Position numbers and translations under genes: made by a program. The notes below the pieces were generated by a model. That model searched no databases. It saw only the letters and a list, made by a program, of their open reading frames with translations, and had not been told where the DNA came from. Positions 13,556 through 52,220 of a stretch of DNA of 64,000 nt are shown one piece after another. This DNA comes from Herbiconiux ginsengi (GTDB taxonomy: Bacteria; Actinomycetota; Actinomycetes; Actinomycetales; Microbacteriaceae). The DNA lies in the NCBI RefSeq assembly GCF_900107435.1, contig NZ_FNPZ01000001.1:1088960-1152959 (forward strand). The letters run 5' to 3'. Each line of letters begins with the position of its first letter. Position 1 is the stretch's first letter.

Positions 13556-14792
13556 GATGGGCCAGACGCAGCTGCGCCACCAGTCCCACGATCGCGGCCA
13601 CGAGGATCGCGACGCCGTAGAGCAGCACCGCGCCGAGCAATCCGAGCGGGGCGATCAACTGACCGGCGATGATCGTCGGCACACCGAAGGCGAGGTATGC
13701 CACGAGGAAGACGCCGGCGAAGAGCTCGGCGCGCGATTCGGGCGAAGCCAGGGGTGCGAGCGCCCGGAGGGTGCCGGAGAACGAGGCACCGAACCCGACG
13801 CCGCCGATGACGCCGCCCACGATGAGCAACGGCAGCACACCGGCTACGACCCCGAGCACGATCACCCCGGTTCCGAGCAGCACGGCGGCCATTCCGGAGA
13901 CGACCGCCCGCCGCGCCGCGAAGCGGCCGAGCAGGAGGGCCGCGACCGCGGCGGCGGCCGGTTCGACGAAGGTGGTGACGCCGTTCAGTGCGCCGCTGTC
14001 GATGTGGAAGACGTCGCGGATGATCGACGGGACGAGCCCCATGAACAGGCCCGCGAGCATCCAGGACGCCAGTTGCACGGGCACACTCGCGGCGAATTCG
14101 ACGCGCGCGGCCCGGGGGATGGAGATGCGCGGGATGAGCGAACGCACGGCACCCGGACGCCCCGGGTTGGTCTCCTGCGAGAACACGACCACGAGGAGCG
14201 CGAGCACCATGATCACGGCGAGCGCCCCGAACACGATGGCCGCGGGAGCGAGGGTGAACTGCACCGCGAAACCTGTGATCAACGCCCCCAGTGCGAGCCC
14301 GCCGGCCGGTGCGACGCTGCCGACTATCGCTCCGAACCGGCGGAAGCGTTCGGGTGCGAGTTCGACCACCGCGGCCGTGAAGGCGCTCGTCGCGATGCCC
14401 GTGGCGAGCCCCTGCACGGCTCTGGCGAGGATGACCCAGCCCACGTCGGGAGCGAACACGAAGAGCACCATGGCCGCAGTCTCCAGGGCGAGCGCACCGA
14501 TCAGCACCGGACGCCGGCCGATGTGGTCGGAGAGCGACCCGCCCACCAGGAGCGCGGCGAGGAGGGCGATCGCGTAGATCGCGAAGGCGATCGTGAGCTC
14601 CCACGCCGGGAAGGCCCATTGCTCCTCGAGCAGGAGGAACAGCGGAGTCGGGGCTCCCGCCGCGAGGTAGAGGGCGGCGAAACCGATCGCCGTGCCGATG
14701 AAGGCCGTCGTGGGTGACAGGTGGAAGGATGCGCGGCGCCGGCCCGGCGTGACCACGGCTACGGCGGCGGTCGATTCCTCGAGAACGGACAT
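13542..14792 (-). CDS. MFS transporter (drug or sugar efflux type), TetR-controlled
   Basis: 416 aa from ATG 14792, chosen for the AGGAG about eight bases upstream; an ATG 48 bases further up lies in the operator region. Twelve hydrophobic segments are visible. The loop 2-3 motif GGSLSDHIGRRPVL, the MFS motif A, is intact near residue 62. It is a proton-driven exporter of unknown substrate. The divergent TetR gene and the shared inverted repeat in the 96-bp gap make substrate-induced derepression the likely control. Its 3' end runs into a short tandem repeat, which supplies its last codons. Confidence 0.85.
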   Translation of the reverse strand: MSVLEESTAAVAVVTPGRRRASFHLSPTTAFIGTAIGFAALYLAAGAPTPLFLLLEEQWAFPAWELTIAFAIYAIALLAALLVGGSLSDHIGRRPVLIGALALETAAMVLFVFAPDVGWVILARAVQGLATGIATSAFTAAVVELAPERFRRFGAIVGSVAPAGGLALGALITGFAVQFTLAPAAIVFGALAVIMVLALLVVVFSQETNPGRPGAVRSLIPRISIPRAARVEFAASVPVQLASWMLAGLFMGLVPSIIRDVFHIDSGALNGVTTFVEPAAAAVAALLLGRFAARRAVVSGMAAVLLGTGVIVLGVVAGVLPLLIVGGVIGGVGFGASFSGTLRALAPLASPESRAELFAGVFLVAYLAFGVPTIIAGQLIAPLGLLGAVLLYGVAILVAAIVGLVAQLRLAHRNRR

Positions 14793-46504: not shown

Positions 46505-46620
46505 GGCAACTCGCTTCGTCGATGCACAGGCAGAGCCATCACCATTCCAGCCGCCGGCCCGACTCCGTTATGAGCAATTCCTACTCAGTCAATGGCCCCG
46601 ACTCTCACATCCGCGTTCCC

Positions 46621-46626
46621 TACTAT
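46621..46626 (+). promoter_or_regulatory. -10 box of a leaderless promoter (helical membrane protein)
   Basis: TACTAT, six bases before ATG 46633. Confidence 0.55.
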
Positions 46627-46632
46627 TTCCCC

Positions 46633-47925
46633 ATGGGCGATTTCTCCCTCATTCCGAGCCTCATCGTCTTCGCGGTGGTCGTGGTCGCGCTCATCGTCGG
46701 CCTGTCGCTCTTGCGCCGCCGCGCTCGCCGCCGCATCGCTCCCGAGATCGGGCGGGCGCCGGCTCGTGTCGAGGTCTCCGACCTCATCCGCTCCGCCAAC
46801 ATCCAGCTCGTGCAGATGGACGACGCCATCCGCGACGCCGACGAAGAGCTGCAATTCGCGATCGCCGAGTTCGGCCCCGAAGCCACGCACGAGTTCGCCG
46901 ACGCCATCGCCACCGCCAAGACCCGAGCCTCCGAAGCCTTCGCCCTCAAGCAGCGTCTCGACGACTCGGTGCCCGACAGCGAGCAGCGGCAGCGCGACTG
47001 GAGCAAGCGCATCCTCACGCTCAGCGATTCGGCCCACGCCCTGGTCACCGCCCAATCCCGGGCCTTCGAGCGTCGCCGGCGTCAGGAGACGACCGCTCCC
47101 GATTCCCTCCAGCGCGTGCGAGACGACATCGCGACCGGACGCGACCGGCTGCCTGCCGCGAGTTCCCTGCTCGAGACCCTCGGGGCCGAGTACGCCCCCG
47201 AAGCCGTCGCTCCGATGGCGGGCAGAACAGAGGCCGCCGAGCACGCATTCGACGAAGCCGAGCGACTCGTCGGAGCCGCCGACTCCGGCCTCGCCGCCGC
47301 GCCGCTGACGCCCGTCGCCGGCCAGGTGCAGGCCGCAGAAGCCGCGGTCCGACGCGGAGCGACCCTCCTCGATTCGATCGAGCGGATGCGCGACTCGCTG
47401 CGTGAGGCCGCCGGCTCCCGGGACGAAGCCGTCACCGCCGCCCGCGCCCTGGTCGCCGAGGCAGCACGCCTGCGCGACACGATCGAGGACGCCGACGCGG
47501 TGGCCCGGATCGTCGCCGCTTCGGCCGCCGTGGACGAGGTCGCGCACACTGCCGCCACACGCACGCCCCCGCATCCTGCCGCCGACCTCGACGCCCTCGC
47601 CGCCGCGACCGCGCGGCTCGACGAGACCCTGGCGGTGGCCCGCACCGCTCAGCAGCGGCTCGACTCCGCGCGTTCCGCCTTGGTCGGCGCCGTGCACATC
47701 GCGGAGAGCCACATCCGCACCGCGAGCGACTTCATCGCCGCACGCCGCGGGTCGGTCGGCACGGATGCCCGCACCCGGCTGGCCGGGGCCGAGCGTGAGC
47801 TGGGTCTCGCCCGGCTCGAAGCCGACCCGGTCGCCGCCCTCGACGGTGCTCGGCGGGCCGCGACCCTGGCGACGGACGCCGATGCCCTCGCCCGCTATGA
47901 CGCCGGAGGCTCTTTCCACAGCTGA
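46633..47925 (+). CDS. membrane-anchored helical protein of unknown function
   Basis: 430 aa from ATG 46633 (TACTAT-N6-ATG); longer frames cross the divergent promoter. One N-terminal membrane helix (residues 5-26) is followed by a basic stop-transfer RRRARRR and about 390 residues of Ala/Arg/Glu/Leu-rich helix with heptad character, consistent with a long coiled-coil or spectrin-like bundle on the cytosolic side. The helical half resembles the C-terminal part of actinobacterial TPM-domain membrane proteins, but the TPM domain itself is absent. Function unknown. It faces the gap to the AT-richer patch. Confidence 0.7.
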   Translation: MGDFSLIPSLIVFAVVVVALIVGLSLLRRRARRRIAPEIGRAPARVEVSDLIRSANIQLVQMDDAIRDADEELQFAIAEFGPEATHEFADAIATAKTRASEAFALKQRLDDSVPDSEQRQRDWSKRILTLSDSAHALVTAQSRAFERRRRQETTAPDSLQRVRDDIATGRDRLPAASSLLETLGAEYAPEAVAPMAGRTEAAEHAFDEAERLVGAADSGLAAAPLTPVAGQVQAAEAAVRRGATLLDSIERMRDSLREAAGSRDEAVTAARALVAEAARLRDTIEDADAVARIVAASAAVDEVAHTAATRTPPHPAADLDALAAATARLDETLAVARTAQQRLDSARSALVGAVHIAESHIRTASDFIAARRGSVGTDARTRLAGAERELGLARLEADPVAALDGARRAATLATDADALARYDAGGSFHS

Positions 47926-48099
47926 GCCGTCGTGGAGATCTCTCCACAGATTCGGGCGCGATCCGCATGGAGGGTCGGTGTACGCCAGGCTAGAGCCGCA
48001 GTGTCGTTATCGGCTCGAGCGGTGTGCGACCTACACCCACGAAATCGTGACGCCCATAGAATTTTCGAACAGGTCCAAGAGCTAACGCGAGGAGCGCCA

Positions 48100-48312
48100 G
48101 TGAGCACGAAATCCGTCCGAATCCACTACACGAATTATCGAGGGGTCACGGACTGGCGCGTCATCGAACCCGAGGCCATCTGGTTTGGGTCGACGGAGTG
48201 GCATCCCGAGCCGCAGTGGCTTCTGGATGCCGTCGACGTAGAGCGGGGCGAGAAGCGAACCTTCGCTCTCGTCGACCTTCACGAATGGCGAGAGAACACG
48301 GATACACCCTGA
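48100..48312 (+). CDS. small WYL-like domain protein
   Basis: 70 aa from GTG 48100, preceded by an ideal GAGGAG six bases upstream; a longer frame back to 47932 is less likely. It starts STKSVRIHYTNYRGVTDWRVI and continues EAIWFGSTEWHPEPQWLL and RTFALVDLHEWRE, the compact beta fold of the small stand-alone WYL-like proteins found in phages, plasmids and genomic islands. WYL domains are ligand (often nucleotide or nucleic acid) sensors in defence and stress regulators. Its stop overlaps the next start as TGATG, so the two proteins are made together. It has no HTH of its own. Confidence 0.7.
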   Translation: MSTKSVRIHYTNYRGVTDWRVIEPEAIWFGSTEWHPEPQWLLDAVDVERGEKRTFALVDLHEWRENTDTP

Positions 48313-49349
48313 TGTATCTCTCGGATCGCGAGATCGTTCCCCGCCTGGGAGAGATCGGGTTCGAATGCGACATCGACGCGCACCCGTTCAGGCCTGTCGA
48401 GCAGGTGCAAGCGAGTTCTGTCGATTTGCGTCTCGGGACCCGGTTCTGGCGGCCGAAGAGATTTCGAAGCGGCCTGACTTGGCCGTTCAGACGACAGATC
48501 GTGGACCTTCGGCATCGGTCGCTTCACGAGTCCTATCCGCGGCACGACTGGGAGGCCTTCAACGCCGGACCAGACGAAGTTCTCACGCTACGCCCGGGCG
48601 AGATGCTGCTGGCGAGAACATACGAGGCCTTCAGTATGCCTCCCGATCTCGCTGGGAGGATGGCTGCGCGGAGTTCATACGCTCGGTTGGGCCTGGCGAT
48701 TCATTGCGGTGCGGACCATATCAATCCCGGTTGGAAGGGCCGCATGCCGCTTCAGCTCGTGAACCTCTCCAAGCGCACGATTCGTTTCACCCCACTGACA
48801 CCGATCGCTCAAGTCATCTTCATTCAGCTCACGTCCAAGGCTGAACATCCCTACGGCGCACAGAACAAATATCGAGACGACGACGGTGGGCCGTCCTACT
48901 GGTGGCGCGACAAGATGGTCGAAGACCTTGCCTCCACTCATGGGGAGATCTCGCTCCCCCCGGCGATTCAGAAGAAGCTCCAAGCGCTCTTCGCGACGTC
49001 GTCGCTCACTCCCGATCAACTCGTGCGGATGTACCGATTCTTCAACTCCCGCAAGTCGAACGACCTTGCGAACTGGAACGACTCGATCGATGACTTCGCT
49101 CGAGTCGAGGGGCGAAGGTCCATGCTCTCCACCATCTTCAGAAGGGGAGTTCCCACTGCCGCGGCTCTCGCGATCGGAGCGCTCTTGAGCTTTCTCGTAA
49201 TTCCGTGGTCTGGCTGGCACGCCGCAGCGGCTGTGGCGAGCGTGATCCTTATCTCACTTACCGTTCTGATCGTCACGTCGCGAAAGCCGGAATTCCTGGA
49301 CTCCAACGAACTCCTGCGTCTACGACGCCAATATCCCGGCGATTTCTAA
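48312..49349 (+). CDS. membrane-anchored dCTP-deaminase-fold protein lacking conserved acidic residues
   Basis: 345 aa from ATG 48312 (TGATG coupling with the WYL-like gene). Residues 1-190 align with dCTP deaminase: YLSDREI at the N-terminus, SSVDLRLG at 35-42, the RSS-x-ARLGL substrate loop at 120-128, HINPGWKG at 136-143 and a terminal NKYRDD. Canonical Dcd has IDPGW and a catalytic Glu in the following VLEFYN strand; here these are Asn138 and Gln148, so two acidic residues read as amides. A helical linker (about 200-275) leads to two membrane helices at about 281-299 and 302-323 and a cytosolic tail. Deamination is doubtful; nucleotide binding or sensing is plausible. Lower GC than its neighbours suggests transfer. 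Confidence 0.8.
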   Translation: MYLSDREIVPRLGEIGFECDIDAHPFRPVEQVQASSVDLRLGTRFWRPKRFRSGLTWPFRRQIVDLRHRSLHESYPRHDWEAFNAGPDEVLTLRPGEMLLARTYEAFSMPPDLAGRMAARSSYARLGLAIHCGADHINPGWKGRMPLQLVNLSKRTIRFTPLTPIAQVIFIQLTSKAEHPYGAQNKYRDDDGGPSYWWRDKMVEDLASTHGEISLPPAIQKKLQALFATSSLTPDQLVRMYRFFNSRKSNDLANWNDSIDDFARVEGRRSMLSTIFRRGVPTAAALAIGALLSFLVIPWSGWHAAAAVASVILISLTVLIVTSRKPEFLDSNELLRLRRQYPGDF

Positions 49350-49361
49350 CATGGGCGTGCG

Positions 49362-49616
49362 TCAGGCATCGACAGGGCGAAAGCGAGGTACGCGTGACCC
49401 GTTCAGCACAACGGTCTCGAGGAACATCCCAACGGGGCGGGCCCACATCGCCGTTTCACCGGATCGCCGATAGATCACTAACATCGCGGATGTCTCCGAG
49501 TCTTCGGCAGTGCCGAGAACATCGTAATAGCCGCCTTTGAAGTGCCGGTATCGTCCTGGGACCACCGCCAGAGTCTCCGTGTCGGTCTGATCAACCGCCA
49601 AAACCGTTCCCGGCAT
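49362..49616 (-). CDS. DUF1653-family protein
   Basis: 84 aa. The DUF1653 core is clear: PGRYRHFKGGYYDVLGTAED, SAMLVIYRRSGETAMWARP and MFLETV, a small beta-barrel of unknown function that recurs in bacteria and phages. It is convergent with the deaminase-fold gene (12 nt between the stops) and divergent from the MerR gene, in the AT-richer patch. No catalytic residues can be named; cytosolic. Confidence 0.78.
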   Translation of the reverse strand: MPGTVLAVDQTDTETLAVVPGRYRHFKGGYYDVLGTAEDSETSAMLVIYRRSGETAMWARPVGMFLETVVLNGSRVPRFRPVDA

Positions 49617-49693
49617 CTCGACTCCTCAACTCGTGTTCGAAGAATGGCACGTTACGCGCAGGGCCACGAACACGTCAATTTTAACATAAAACA

Positions 49694-49731
49694 ATGGCTA
49701 ACTTAGTAATTGATTCATAGGGTTAAGCCAT
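49694..49731. promoter_or_regulatory. dyad in the AT-rich MerR promoter region
   Basis: ATGGCTAAC (49694-49702) and GGTTAAGCCAT (49721-49731) are inverted copies with one base inserted, around a very AT-rich segment, and end on the MerR start codon. Possible MerR autoregulatory site. Confidence 0.4.
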
Positions 49732-50275
49732 GATCTCCTCGCAGGATGCCACCGCCGCGCTCGAGACCGCGGCTGTTCTCGCCTGCTCTGGAGTGCCCGC
49801 TTCGACATTGAACTACTGGGTGAGTAAGGGCCTCTGCGAGCCGAGCGTGATGCCCGGCCGAGGTCAGCGGTCTCCTCGATATTGGAGCGCCCGAGACCTC
49901 GTGACCGTTCGCGCCATCAAGGCTCTGAGAGAGGCCGGCTGCCCGCTTCAGATCGTGTCCCGGGTCAAGGCGCTGCTTCTGACCGAGTGGGACACGGAGA
50001 TCGCTTCGAGTGTCTTGTTCTACGACGGAAACGACGTGGTGCTGATCGACTTCGACAGACAGGCCGTACTAAGCGTCGTGAGAGAGACTGGGCAGGGCAT
50101 CTTCGTGGAAGCGATGCAGATGATGACGTTCCCCATTCGCCGGTGGCTCGATGAAGCAGATGCACTGCTCAAGCCGATCGACCTGGACGATGTCAGATCG
50201 CGCGAGAGAGCCAGTCGCGGTCGCACCGCCACCCGCTCGCTTGTCCCCGCACGACGGACGACTAGAACTGCCTGA
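49730..50275 (+). CDS. MerR-family transcriptional regulator
   Basis: 181 aa. The N-terminal MerR winged helix reads VPASTLNYWVSKGLCEPSV and SPRYWSARDLVTVRAIKAL (residues 23-66); the arm and wing are complete. The C-terminal part is not a metal-binding MerR domain: it holds VLFYDGNDVVLIDFDRQAVLSVV, a small beta-rich effector domain of unknown ligand, and a basic tail. It lies at the edge of the AT-richer patch, with a dyad over its start. Target genes could be its divergent DUF1653 neighbour or itself. Confidence 0.78.
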   Translation: MISSQDATAALETAAVLACSGVPASTLNYWVSKGLCEPSVMPGRGQRSPRYWSARDLVTVRAIKALREAGCPLQIVSRVKALLLTEWDTEIASSVLFYDGNDVVLIDFDRQAVLSVVRETGQGIFVEAMQMMTFPIRRWLDEADALLKPIDLDDVRSRERASRGRTATRSLVPARRTTRTA

Positions 50276-50298
50276 GACCGAGCGCCATACTCCCTTCT

Positions 50299-50952
50299 AT
50301 GGGATCAGAGGCAATCGGATCGGTCACGATCAGAGACGAAAGCGGCGCGACGCTCGCGCACGCTCACGACGTGAAGGCACTGCTGGAGAGTCGTGAGTTC
50401 ATCCTGCGCGGCCCGCTCCGGCGGGTTCTTCGGGTCGACCAGCTCCGCGACGTGGCTGCCGAGGGCGACCGCCTCCGATTCGGGCACGGGAACGAGCGGT
50501 ACGAGCTGATCCTGGGCCCGTCGGTCGCAGCTCGCTGGGCCAAGAAGATCCTCACCCCGCCGCCCACGCTCGCGGCCAAACTCGGCATCGCCCCCGAGCG
50601 GCCCGCCGTCGTCATCGGCCGTGTGACGGATGCTCGACTCGTCGAGGCCCTGCTCGGCGCGACGACCGGTGGCGAGCCCGGAACACCGCCGGATCTCGCG
50701 ATCGCGGAGATCGACGACGCCGAAGGGCTTGAGAACGCGGTGGCAGAGCTGCCGACGGGTCTGCCGATCTGGCTCGTGCACCGCAAGGGCCCGGGCACCG
50801 ATTTCGGCGACACCGCGATCCGTCAGCGGATGCGTTCGCTCGGGTTCATCGACACCAAAGTGGCGGCGGTGTCGGATGCGCGCACGGCGACGCGGTACTC
50901 GCCGCGCCCGACGAAGACCGAAGCACCCGCAGGGGAGTCGCCTATGAGGTGA
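50299..50952 (+). CDS. hypothetical protein, DUF3052-like C-terminus
   Basis: 217 aa. Two parts: an N-terminal beta-rich half (residues 1-85: SVTIRDESGATLAHAHDV ... YELILGPSVAARWAKKIL) and a C-terminal half (105-205) with PAVVIGRVTDARLVEALLG, PIWLVHRKGPGTDFGDTAI and MRSLGFIDTKVAAVSD, which resembles DUF3052-type domains. GC content is back to the chromosomal level. No signal peptide; likely cytosolic. Function unknown. It is 23 nt behind the MerR gene and could be cotranscribed with it. Confidence 0.6.
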   Translation: MGSEAIGSVTIRDESGATLAHAHDVKALLESREFILRGPLRRVLRVDQLRDVAAEGDRLRFGHGNERYELILGPSVAARWAKKILTPPPTLAAKLGIAPERPAVVIGRVTDARLVEALLGATTGGEPGTPPDLAIAEIDDAEGLENAVAELPTGLPIWLVHRKGPGTDFGDTAIRQRMRSLGFIDTKVAAVSDARTATRYSPRPTKTEAPAGESPMR

Positions 50953-52132
50953 CTCCGCCGCCTCCGCTCGCGTTCGATCCCGAGAAGGTGAAGATCATGA
51001 CTCCATCGACGAGGGTGAGATACCCGCCGTAGGTGTAGTTGGAGAGGGTGTAGCGCACCGTGCCGAACTCGCCCGAGGGGAGGGAGTAGTCGCCATTGCC
51101 GATGATCGTGCCGGGTGCATCGGGCAGCACTTCCCAGCCGTTCGGCGTCCAGGCGCCGATCGTGAACGTCGGCCGCGGATCGACCGACCAGACGAGGTTG
51201 GTCACGACTTCACCGTCGCCTGTCTCGGCGTAGAAGTCGCAGCCTTCGGGCGCCAGCACGGGCTGAGCGATACAGGCGTCGAGATAGCCCGCGGCTGCGG
51301 CCTGCCCGGCTGCTTCGCCCTCCGGAGTGAGTGAAGCCGTCAGGGTCGCGTCGACGCCATCGACATCCGCCGTGAAGGAGTCGACGGTGACGGTGTCGTC
51401 CTCGATCTGCACCTTGCCGTCGGCCGACGGAGCGCCGACGACATAGCTGCCGGGCAGAGCCGCGAGCGGGCGCGCGATGATGGACTCGACGGGCTCATCG
51501 ATCGCGATGCCGTTGACGGTCACCCCGGATCCCGTCGGGCCGTCGAACGTGACCCGGATGGAGTTGTAGTCGATCGGATCGAGGGCCCAGGTGTCGACGA
51601 AGATCGCTTCCCGGCCGGTGCGTGTGAGCCGGAACGACTGGCTGAACTCGTCGGCGCCCTGCTGGATGCTGGCGACGACCGTGGCTCCGCTGCTGTCGAT
51701 GCCCGTGGAGTCGATCGTGTATCCGGTGACATGTGCGCCGGCGGCCGCGTAGGCCGCGTCGGTGAGCAGATCCGGGAGCATGTTGTCGGGCACGCCGCCG
51801 CCCAACGCCACGGCGTCTTCGATCCGGCCGTCCACGACCGCGGCGAGGTACGCGTCGACGATCTTCTCCGGAGCGTTCCGAGCGGCTGCAGTGGAGACGG
51901 CGATCCAGGTCAGGCCACCCGCCACGAGCGCGAGGAGGACGACGAGACCCACGCCGATCCACACGAAGAGGAGCGGTCTGCCGCGCCGAGGCGGGGGAGG
52001 AGATGCGGGCTGCGACTGCGAGGGCAGCGGCGGAACGCACGGCTGCTGCACGCTGGGAGGCTGCACGGATGCAGCCTGCGGGAACGAGCCTTCAACCGGT
52101 GGAACCGGAGGAACAGGTGGATCGACCGACAC
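50942..52132 (-). CDS. hypothetical single-pass membrane protein with Pro-rich N-terminus
   Basis: 396 aa from GTG 52132, with a GGGGGG stretch about six bases upstream; GTG 52174 would add 14 residues. A cytosolic Pro/Gln-rich tail (residues 1-55) precedes one membrane helix (LLFVWIGVGLVVLLALVAGG, about 60-80). About 310 residues follow outside the membrane, with a DUF4878-like domain (NAPEKIVDAYLAAVVDGRIEDAV) and later beta-rich repeats. A cysteine pair near residues 303 and 311 could form a disulfide. Function unknown; surface-exposed. Convergent with the DUF3052-like gene, with stops overlapping by 11 bp. Confidence 0.7.
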   Translation of the reverse strand: MSVDPPVPPVPPVEGSFPQAASVQPPSVQQPCVPPLPSQSQPASPPPPRRGRPLLFVWIGVGLVVLLALVAGGLTWIAVSTAAARNAPEKIVDAYLAAVVDGRIEDAVALGGGVPDNMLPDLLTDAAYAAAGAHVTGYTIDSTGIDSSGATVVASIQQGADEFSQSFRLTRTGREAIFVDTWALDPIDYNSIRVTFDGPTGSGVTVNGIAIDEPVESIIARPLAALPGSYVVGAPSADGKVQIEDDTVTVDSFTADVDGVDATLTASLTPEGEAAGQAAAAGYLDACIAQPVLAPEGCDFYAETGDGEVVTNLVWSVDPRPTFTIGAWTPNGWEVLPDAPGTIIGNGDYSLPSGEFGTVRYTLSNYTYGGYLTLVDGVMIFTFSGSNASGGGGVTS

Positions 52133-52220
52133 GAAAGACCCCCCGATCACTCGCCACCCGGAGATGTCCTCCACGGGTGACCCTCGATCGGATCGGTCAC
52201 GGATCCGATCCGGTCGTTCG

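Follow-up and report, generated by a model that had tools for sequence, protein, structure and literature searches.

The 64,000 nt window analysed here, from contig NZ_FNPZ01000001.1 of Herbiconiux ginsengi, contains an AT-richer islet of four genes between two flanking genes without a family assignment (Table 1). The first islet gene encodes a small WYL-like protein, and its stop codon overlaps by one base the start of the second, which encodes a dCTP deaminase-like protein that we call DCD-2TM; a DUF1653 gene and a MerR-family regulator gene follow, and all four reading frames are open. The names given to these genes in the original prediction are right at the family level (the dCTP deaminase family match has E 3.6e-35; the other scores are in Table 1). 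The WYL-like protein matches Pfam WYL at E 0.0017, under Pfam's cut-off; it has a WYL-like match only and, at its length, is not a WYL-domain regulator with a DNA-binding domain and a WYL domain in one chain. A search of solved structures with this protein gave nothing meaningful, and the same search with the DUF1653 protein gave one relative, 3be3, of unknown function. Between the DUF1653 and MerR genes, which diverge, lies a probable control region; a consensus scan of this gap (49617–49729) found no sigma-70-type promoter. We note an imperfect inverted repeat, TGGCTAAC / GTTAAGCCA, seen by eye at 49695–49730 and running into the MerR start codon, a possible regulator site.

Table 1. Features of the islet and its surroundings (positions in the window)
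Feature	Position	Strand	Basis or remark
Left flank gene	46522..47925	+	no family; conserved, present in 16/16 genus genomes searched
Acquired islet, approximate ends	47957..50281	.	GC; alignment to uninterrupted site in G007
WYL-like small protein, 70 aa, GTG start	48100..48312	+	phrog_3715 1.7e-21
DCD-2TM protein, 345 aa	48312..49349	+	Pfam/NCBIfam match, model
Dcd-fold domain, residues 1-194	48312..48893	+	family score, fold search
N138 codon (E. coli Dcd D128 position)	48723..48725	+	sequence alignment
Q148 codon (E. coli Dcd catalytic E138 position)	48753..48755	+	sequence alignment
Helical linker, residues 197-252	48900..49067	+	AlphaFold2 model
Membrane segment 1, residues 279-297	49146..49202	+	hydropathy; model helix 255-296
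Membrane segment 2, residues 304-322	49221..49277	+	hydropathy; model helix 301-323
DUF1653 protein, 84 aa, tail-to-tail with DCD-2TM	49362..49616	-	Pfam 5.5e-23
AT-rich gap, divergent DUF1653 and MerR genes	49617..49729	.	GC 0.442; probable control region
MerR-family regulator, 181 aa	49730..50275	+	MerR_1 5.5e-10
Right flank gene	50299..50952	+	no family

One-kb windows from 48.0 to 50.5 kb have GC contents of 0.590–0.609, versus 0.638–0.743 in all other segments of the window. The value for the patch as a whole (47955–50283, 2329 bp) is 0.598, and no segment of equal length is as low among 3540 from the same genome (mean 0.694, sd 0.023, minimum 0.626; sampled as 20 x 20 kb, 400 kb in all) or among 1141 from the rest of the window. 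GC at third codon positions (GC3) is 0.743, 0.716, 0.667 and 0.746 in the four genes; compared with 175 long ORFs of the genome sample (mean 0.891, minimum 0.723, 1st percentile 0.745), two genes thus fall under that minimum and the other two close to the 1st percentile. For the two short genes among the four, GC3 is a noisy measure. A larger set of 228 ORFs (GC3 mean 0.903) was set aside because its composition filter biases it upward. The stretch 49675–49730 has a GC content of 0.286, and 56-bp windows equally low start only at 49669–49679; the whole 113-bp gap is less extreme, 66 of 63,887 windows being as low, with the minimum near 14789. The AT-richer patch at about 47.95–50.28 kb, its AT-richer third positions and the AT-rich stretch at 49675–49730 had all been predicted from the letters, and the calculations bear them out.

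In three relatives of the same genus, G007, G010 and G011, the flank genes are adjacent, separated by 78, 56 and 115 nt, respectively. Aligned with the empty site of G007, the homology ends near 47957 on the left and restarts near 50281 on the right, so the comparison with related genomes proposed in the original prediction does find junctions there. The interval from the left flank gene to the tRNA-Leu(CAG) gene (47926–52219) measures 4298 nt here versus 85–2855 nt in 13 genus relatives (12 lengths printed as gaps and that of G011 read from rows; G008 and G010, whose contig ends before the tRNA, are left out). Its contents differ among genus relatives, and in those 13 no match to any of the four islet genes was detected there. 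No direct repeats pair the two islet edges, and no integrase or transposase was recognised in the ORF list for 43–56 kb or in a scan of eight proteins, in agreement with the predicted lack of integrase, IS element and flanking repeats. The islet has the foreign composition and the absence from the site in relatives that mark a genomic island; it has neither an integrase or transposase of its own nor the flanking repeats that would mark a mobile element. The patch, about 2.3 kb long, is almost certainly an islet gained by horizontal transfer, and the interval that holds it, from a conserved gene to tRNA-Leu, is variable.

Composition, the empty sites and the lack of the WYL-like and full-length deaminase-fold genes in the 15 other genus genomes thus uphold the idea of an accessory insertion. 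For the other two genes the idea needs qualifying: DUF1653 is common at other places in the genus, occurring in 13 of the 16 genomes, this one included, and there are distant MerR matches (24–36% identity) in 58 of 60 relatives including this genome. The sole DUF1653 match of this genome is the islet copy (49362–49616), and 12 of its 15 genus relatives carry one elsewhere. The WYL-like gene was found in this genome alone among the 16, and so was the full-length DCD-2TM protein (E 1e-30), which is likewise confined to this genome among 398 of its family (494.7 bits; the next best match, 137 bits, covers the Dcd part only) and 395 of its phylum (1e-45); its C-terminal half occurs in 1 of 396 phylum genomes. 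The phylum of genome G454 gave a full-length DCD-2TM in 1 of 392 genomes (1e-35), G454 itself. These profile searches scored the best few candidates per genome, and the larger groups were sampled. An ordinary Dcd is also encoded elsewhere in this genome. Among phage records, relatives of the WYL-like protein occur in 253 and Dcd in 261; by tblastn no phage or plasmid record covers 80% of DCD-2TM and none matches its C-terminal half alone. Six phage or plasmid matches were inspected, and four are annotated as Dcd of ordinary length and two have no annotation there. Single-sequence back-translation scans of genome contigs and viral contigs found nothing.

DCD-2TM scores 121.3 bits against TIGR02274 (NCBIfam dCTP deaminase), above the curated cut-off of 92.8, and a Foldseek search with residues 1–194 matched 4a6a_A at 7.3e-16. 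In a viral fold search only Dcd- or dUTPase-like proteins appear among the 50 matches listed, and their TM-scores, normalised by query length, do not exceed 0.43. An AlphaFold2 single-chain model from 45 sequences has a mean pLDDT of 83.7 (mostly above 88 in the Dcd part except a loop at about 51–80, about 58–85 in the linker and about 79–91 in the hairpin); a poor model from five sequences (pLDDT 53.7) was left out. The five members aligned fit the definition of the group, a single chain that joins a Dcd domain, a linker and a pair of membrane helices; four of the five show two hydropathy peaks, L071 showing one (cut-off 1.4). DCD-2TM is a long, membrane-anchored and probably inactive variant of Dcd, a point that the original prediction missed.

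The expected loss of activity comes from two residues. Alignment to wild-type E. coli Dcd (1xs1), from whose printed form the correspondence was numbered, places N138 on D128 and Q148 on E138, which we take to be the motif III aspartate and the catalytic glutamate of the E. coli enzyme; DCD-2TM therefore has neither of the acids of an active dCTP deaminase. Both are kept in all of the best 80 of 195 viral Dcds (78 by script, two by eye), none longer than 236 aa, a set that leans to ordinary enzymes because it was selected by likeness to a canonical Dcd query. They are invariant in 40 picked from those 80, and so are S121, R125, Q167 and Y181, which presumably line the pocket and which DCD-2TM keeps; its Q/G-rich C-terminal arm is altered. 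At 54 other Dcd-like loci the motif was obtained in 51 cases, many of them near-identical, with E in 51/51, D in 48/51 and H in 3/51; because the motif III position can be H, the change of D to N alone is weak evidence. The Glu has been varied in solved structures, which PDB titles name as E138A, E138D and E145Q, and the alignment offset makes E145 of the M. jannaschii protein the same residue as E138. The trimeric dUTPases belong to the same superfamily, and excerpts of PMC4827122 report that human dUTPase with its motif III Asp changed to Asn has activity below detection and unaffected binding; the Asn is engineered there and natural in DCD-2TM, which scores as a Dcd and not as a dUTPase. 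The same excerpts describe DCDs as homotrimers with sites that respond to dTTP and are in allosteric communication via a central channel (PMC4827122).

Four full-length relatives were found, at 32–37% identity: L071 on an IMG/VR contig, and L075, L077 and L084 in a Candidatus Tariuqbacter MAG, a Tepidisphaeraceae MAG and an Isosphaeraceae MAG, respectively. They were retrieved with a DNA pattern for INPGWxGxxxLQ, which demands N and Q, so that these residues in the four are not independent evidence. The pattern hit one viral and 14 genome stretches, with full-length relatives in one and three of these; in the remaining 11, either no frame with the pattern turned up or those that did were unlike Dcd. 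A profile scan of viral contigs returned the L071 contig again (as L086). The searches neutral to N and Q (profile, YWWRDK motif and FW motif) gave no further full-length member: YWWRDK found L071 only, and FW brought in, besides L071, a near-identical pair of phage Dcds, L246 and L247; both retain D and E, and L247, whose gene is complete, has no membrane part. We note that L247:11587-12279 encodes this 230-aa phage Dcd with the SxDLRLxxxFW-type motif of the DCD-2TM group.

The partner genes recur beside some of these relatives. L071 has a 63% identical WYL-like gene directly upstream. At L077 and L084 the gene immediately downstream, on the other strand, encodes DUF1653 (tblastn 3e-12 and 1.7e-13), the arrangement seen in the window. 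DUF1653 was not found beside L071 or L075, nor the WYL-like gene beside L077, L084 or L075 (where the contig starts 171 nt upstream of the DCD-2TM gene), and MerR was not above noise at any of the four loci. Near L084 lie genes for an N6/N4 methylase, for a BglII-like endonuclease (Pfam 0.00087, below cut-off; PADLOC 3.4e-8) and for an HTH_3 protein. Near L071 there are a DUF3489 gene and, where the contig ends, part of a methylase gene; the two L077 neighbours tested have no PADLOC match. At L125:11294-13122 the methylase gene and the endonuclease gene are convergent and overlapping, 1.3 kb from the L084 DCD-2TM gene. At L075:1499-4652, beside the DCD-2TM gene, lie a ParE toxin gene with an adjoining ORF (a possible antitoxin) and an AriA/OLD-like ATPase gene. 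The neighbourhoods of L084, L075 and L071, few as these loci are, hint at defence. The islet itself, compared with known anti-phage systems in PADLOC 2.0.0, gave only weak matches to WYL (0.01) and mad1 (0.004), and is not one of those systems.

Among known proteins DCD-2TM is closest to Dcd (TIGR02274; Pfam DCD), sharing its fold in residues 1–194 and the four kept residues named above; it differs in the N138/Q148 pair and in about 150 extra residues that form the linker and membrane hairpin. The comparable WYL-domain regulators from defence loci are, we take it, of the CapW/BrxR type, from which the islet differs in that its WYL-like protein is small and lacks a DNA-binding domain, with a separate MerR nearby. 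The likeness to them (PMC9122601, PMC9122589) is a WYL-like domain beside an accessory gene. Nucleotide-gated membrane effectors such as Csx23 (PMC11014256) offer an analogy in joining a ligand-binding part to membrane helices; the sensor fold differs, and the islet has no CRISPR or cyclase gene. A dUTPase-containing system from DefensePredictor, where excerpts of PMC13092281 have the dUTPase domain predicted, not validated, in defence, is set beside DCD-2TM by description alone and not by sequence, membrane part or partners. We recognised no description of such a membrane pseudo-deaminase in an open-licence paper library, which leaves out most subscription papers and preprints.

The acquisition of the islet and the anatomy of DCD-2TM are well supported; the function of the protein we infer. 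The variable interval and the lack of integrase or repeats would also suit old native DNA that the relatives lost rather than DNA gained here, but the foreign composition and the occurrence of the full-length gene in 1/398 family genomes speak against this, no phylogeny was found that joins the gene to actinobacterial relatives throughout the family, and we dropped the idea as very improbable indeed. A decaying prophage remnant with phage nucleotide-metabolism genes was dropped as hardly likely: the phage records with WYL-like and Dcd relatives and the IMG/VR contig of L071 fit it, yet the four frames are open, no phage record covers 80% of DCD-2TM or matches its C-terminal half, and the partner arrangement is common to MAG loci.

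Passing the curated cut-off of an active-type dCTP deaminase counts against the reading of DCD-2TM as a silent enzyme and, with the fold match and the several pocket positions kept, for an enzyme that is active and tethered to the membrane, either a dCTP deaminase or a bifunctional one, supplying dUTP or dUMP there. The amides in place of both catalytic acids, the ordinary Dcd elsewhere in the genome and the altered C-terminal arm argue the other way, and this alternative was dropped as improbable. A nucleotide-responsive regulatory or stress module (WYL-like protein, MerR, membrane anchor) with no role in defence seems rather unlikely; regulators adjoin both here (MerR) and near L084 (HTH_3), and WYL domains bind ligands according to the title of PMC4012209, but the rare and patchy spread is more in keeping with accessory conflict genes than with housekeeping stress control.

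We think it likely that the DCD-2TM proteins form a catalytically silent, membrane-anchored group of Dcds. For the islet as a whole we give an even chance to the reading that it encodes a membrane-anchored, probably silent nucleotide-binding protein with small partners, acting as a sensor or effector, perhaps in defence; against this, five members are known in all, four of them from the N/Q-demanding pattern, the partners are inconstant, MerR being unshared and DUF1653 common in the genus, and the PADLOC matches are weak. Its core would be a two-gene operon (WYL-like, DCD-2TM) with the convergent DUF1653 gene and the MerR regulator. The Dcd domain may form a homotrimer like its relatives, which would still bind nucleotide without turnover and could relay the effects of ligand binding to a three-hairpin bundle in the membrane, perhaps under modulation by the WYL-like and DUF1653 proteins. 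The likeliest use would be to detect nucleotide pools thrown out of balance, for example by phage infection or replication stress, and to respond at the membrane; because the partner genes also adjoin relatives in distant bacteria, a nucleotide sensor may fit better than metabolic clutter. A role of the islet in defence is possible, though we lean against it. Less likely again would be a new class of nucleotide-gated membrane effector, in which a dCTP-deaminase trimer, made a pure sensor by the change of both acids to amides and carrying a fused hairpin of two helices, would read the dNTP changes of infection and act on the membrane, with the WYL-like and DUF1653 proteins tuning it. If the sensor reading is true, a pseudo-deaminase that keeps its pocket and sits at the membrane would show an enzyme of nucleotide metabolism turning into a switch, and the islet would give a testable setting for DUF1653 and phrog_3715, two families without a function.
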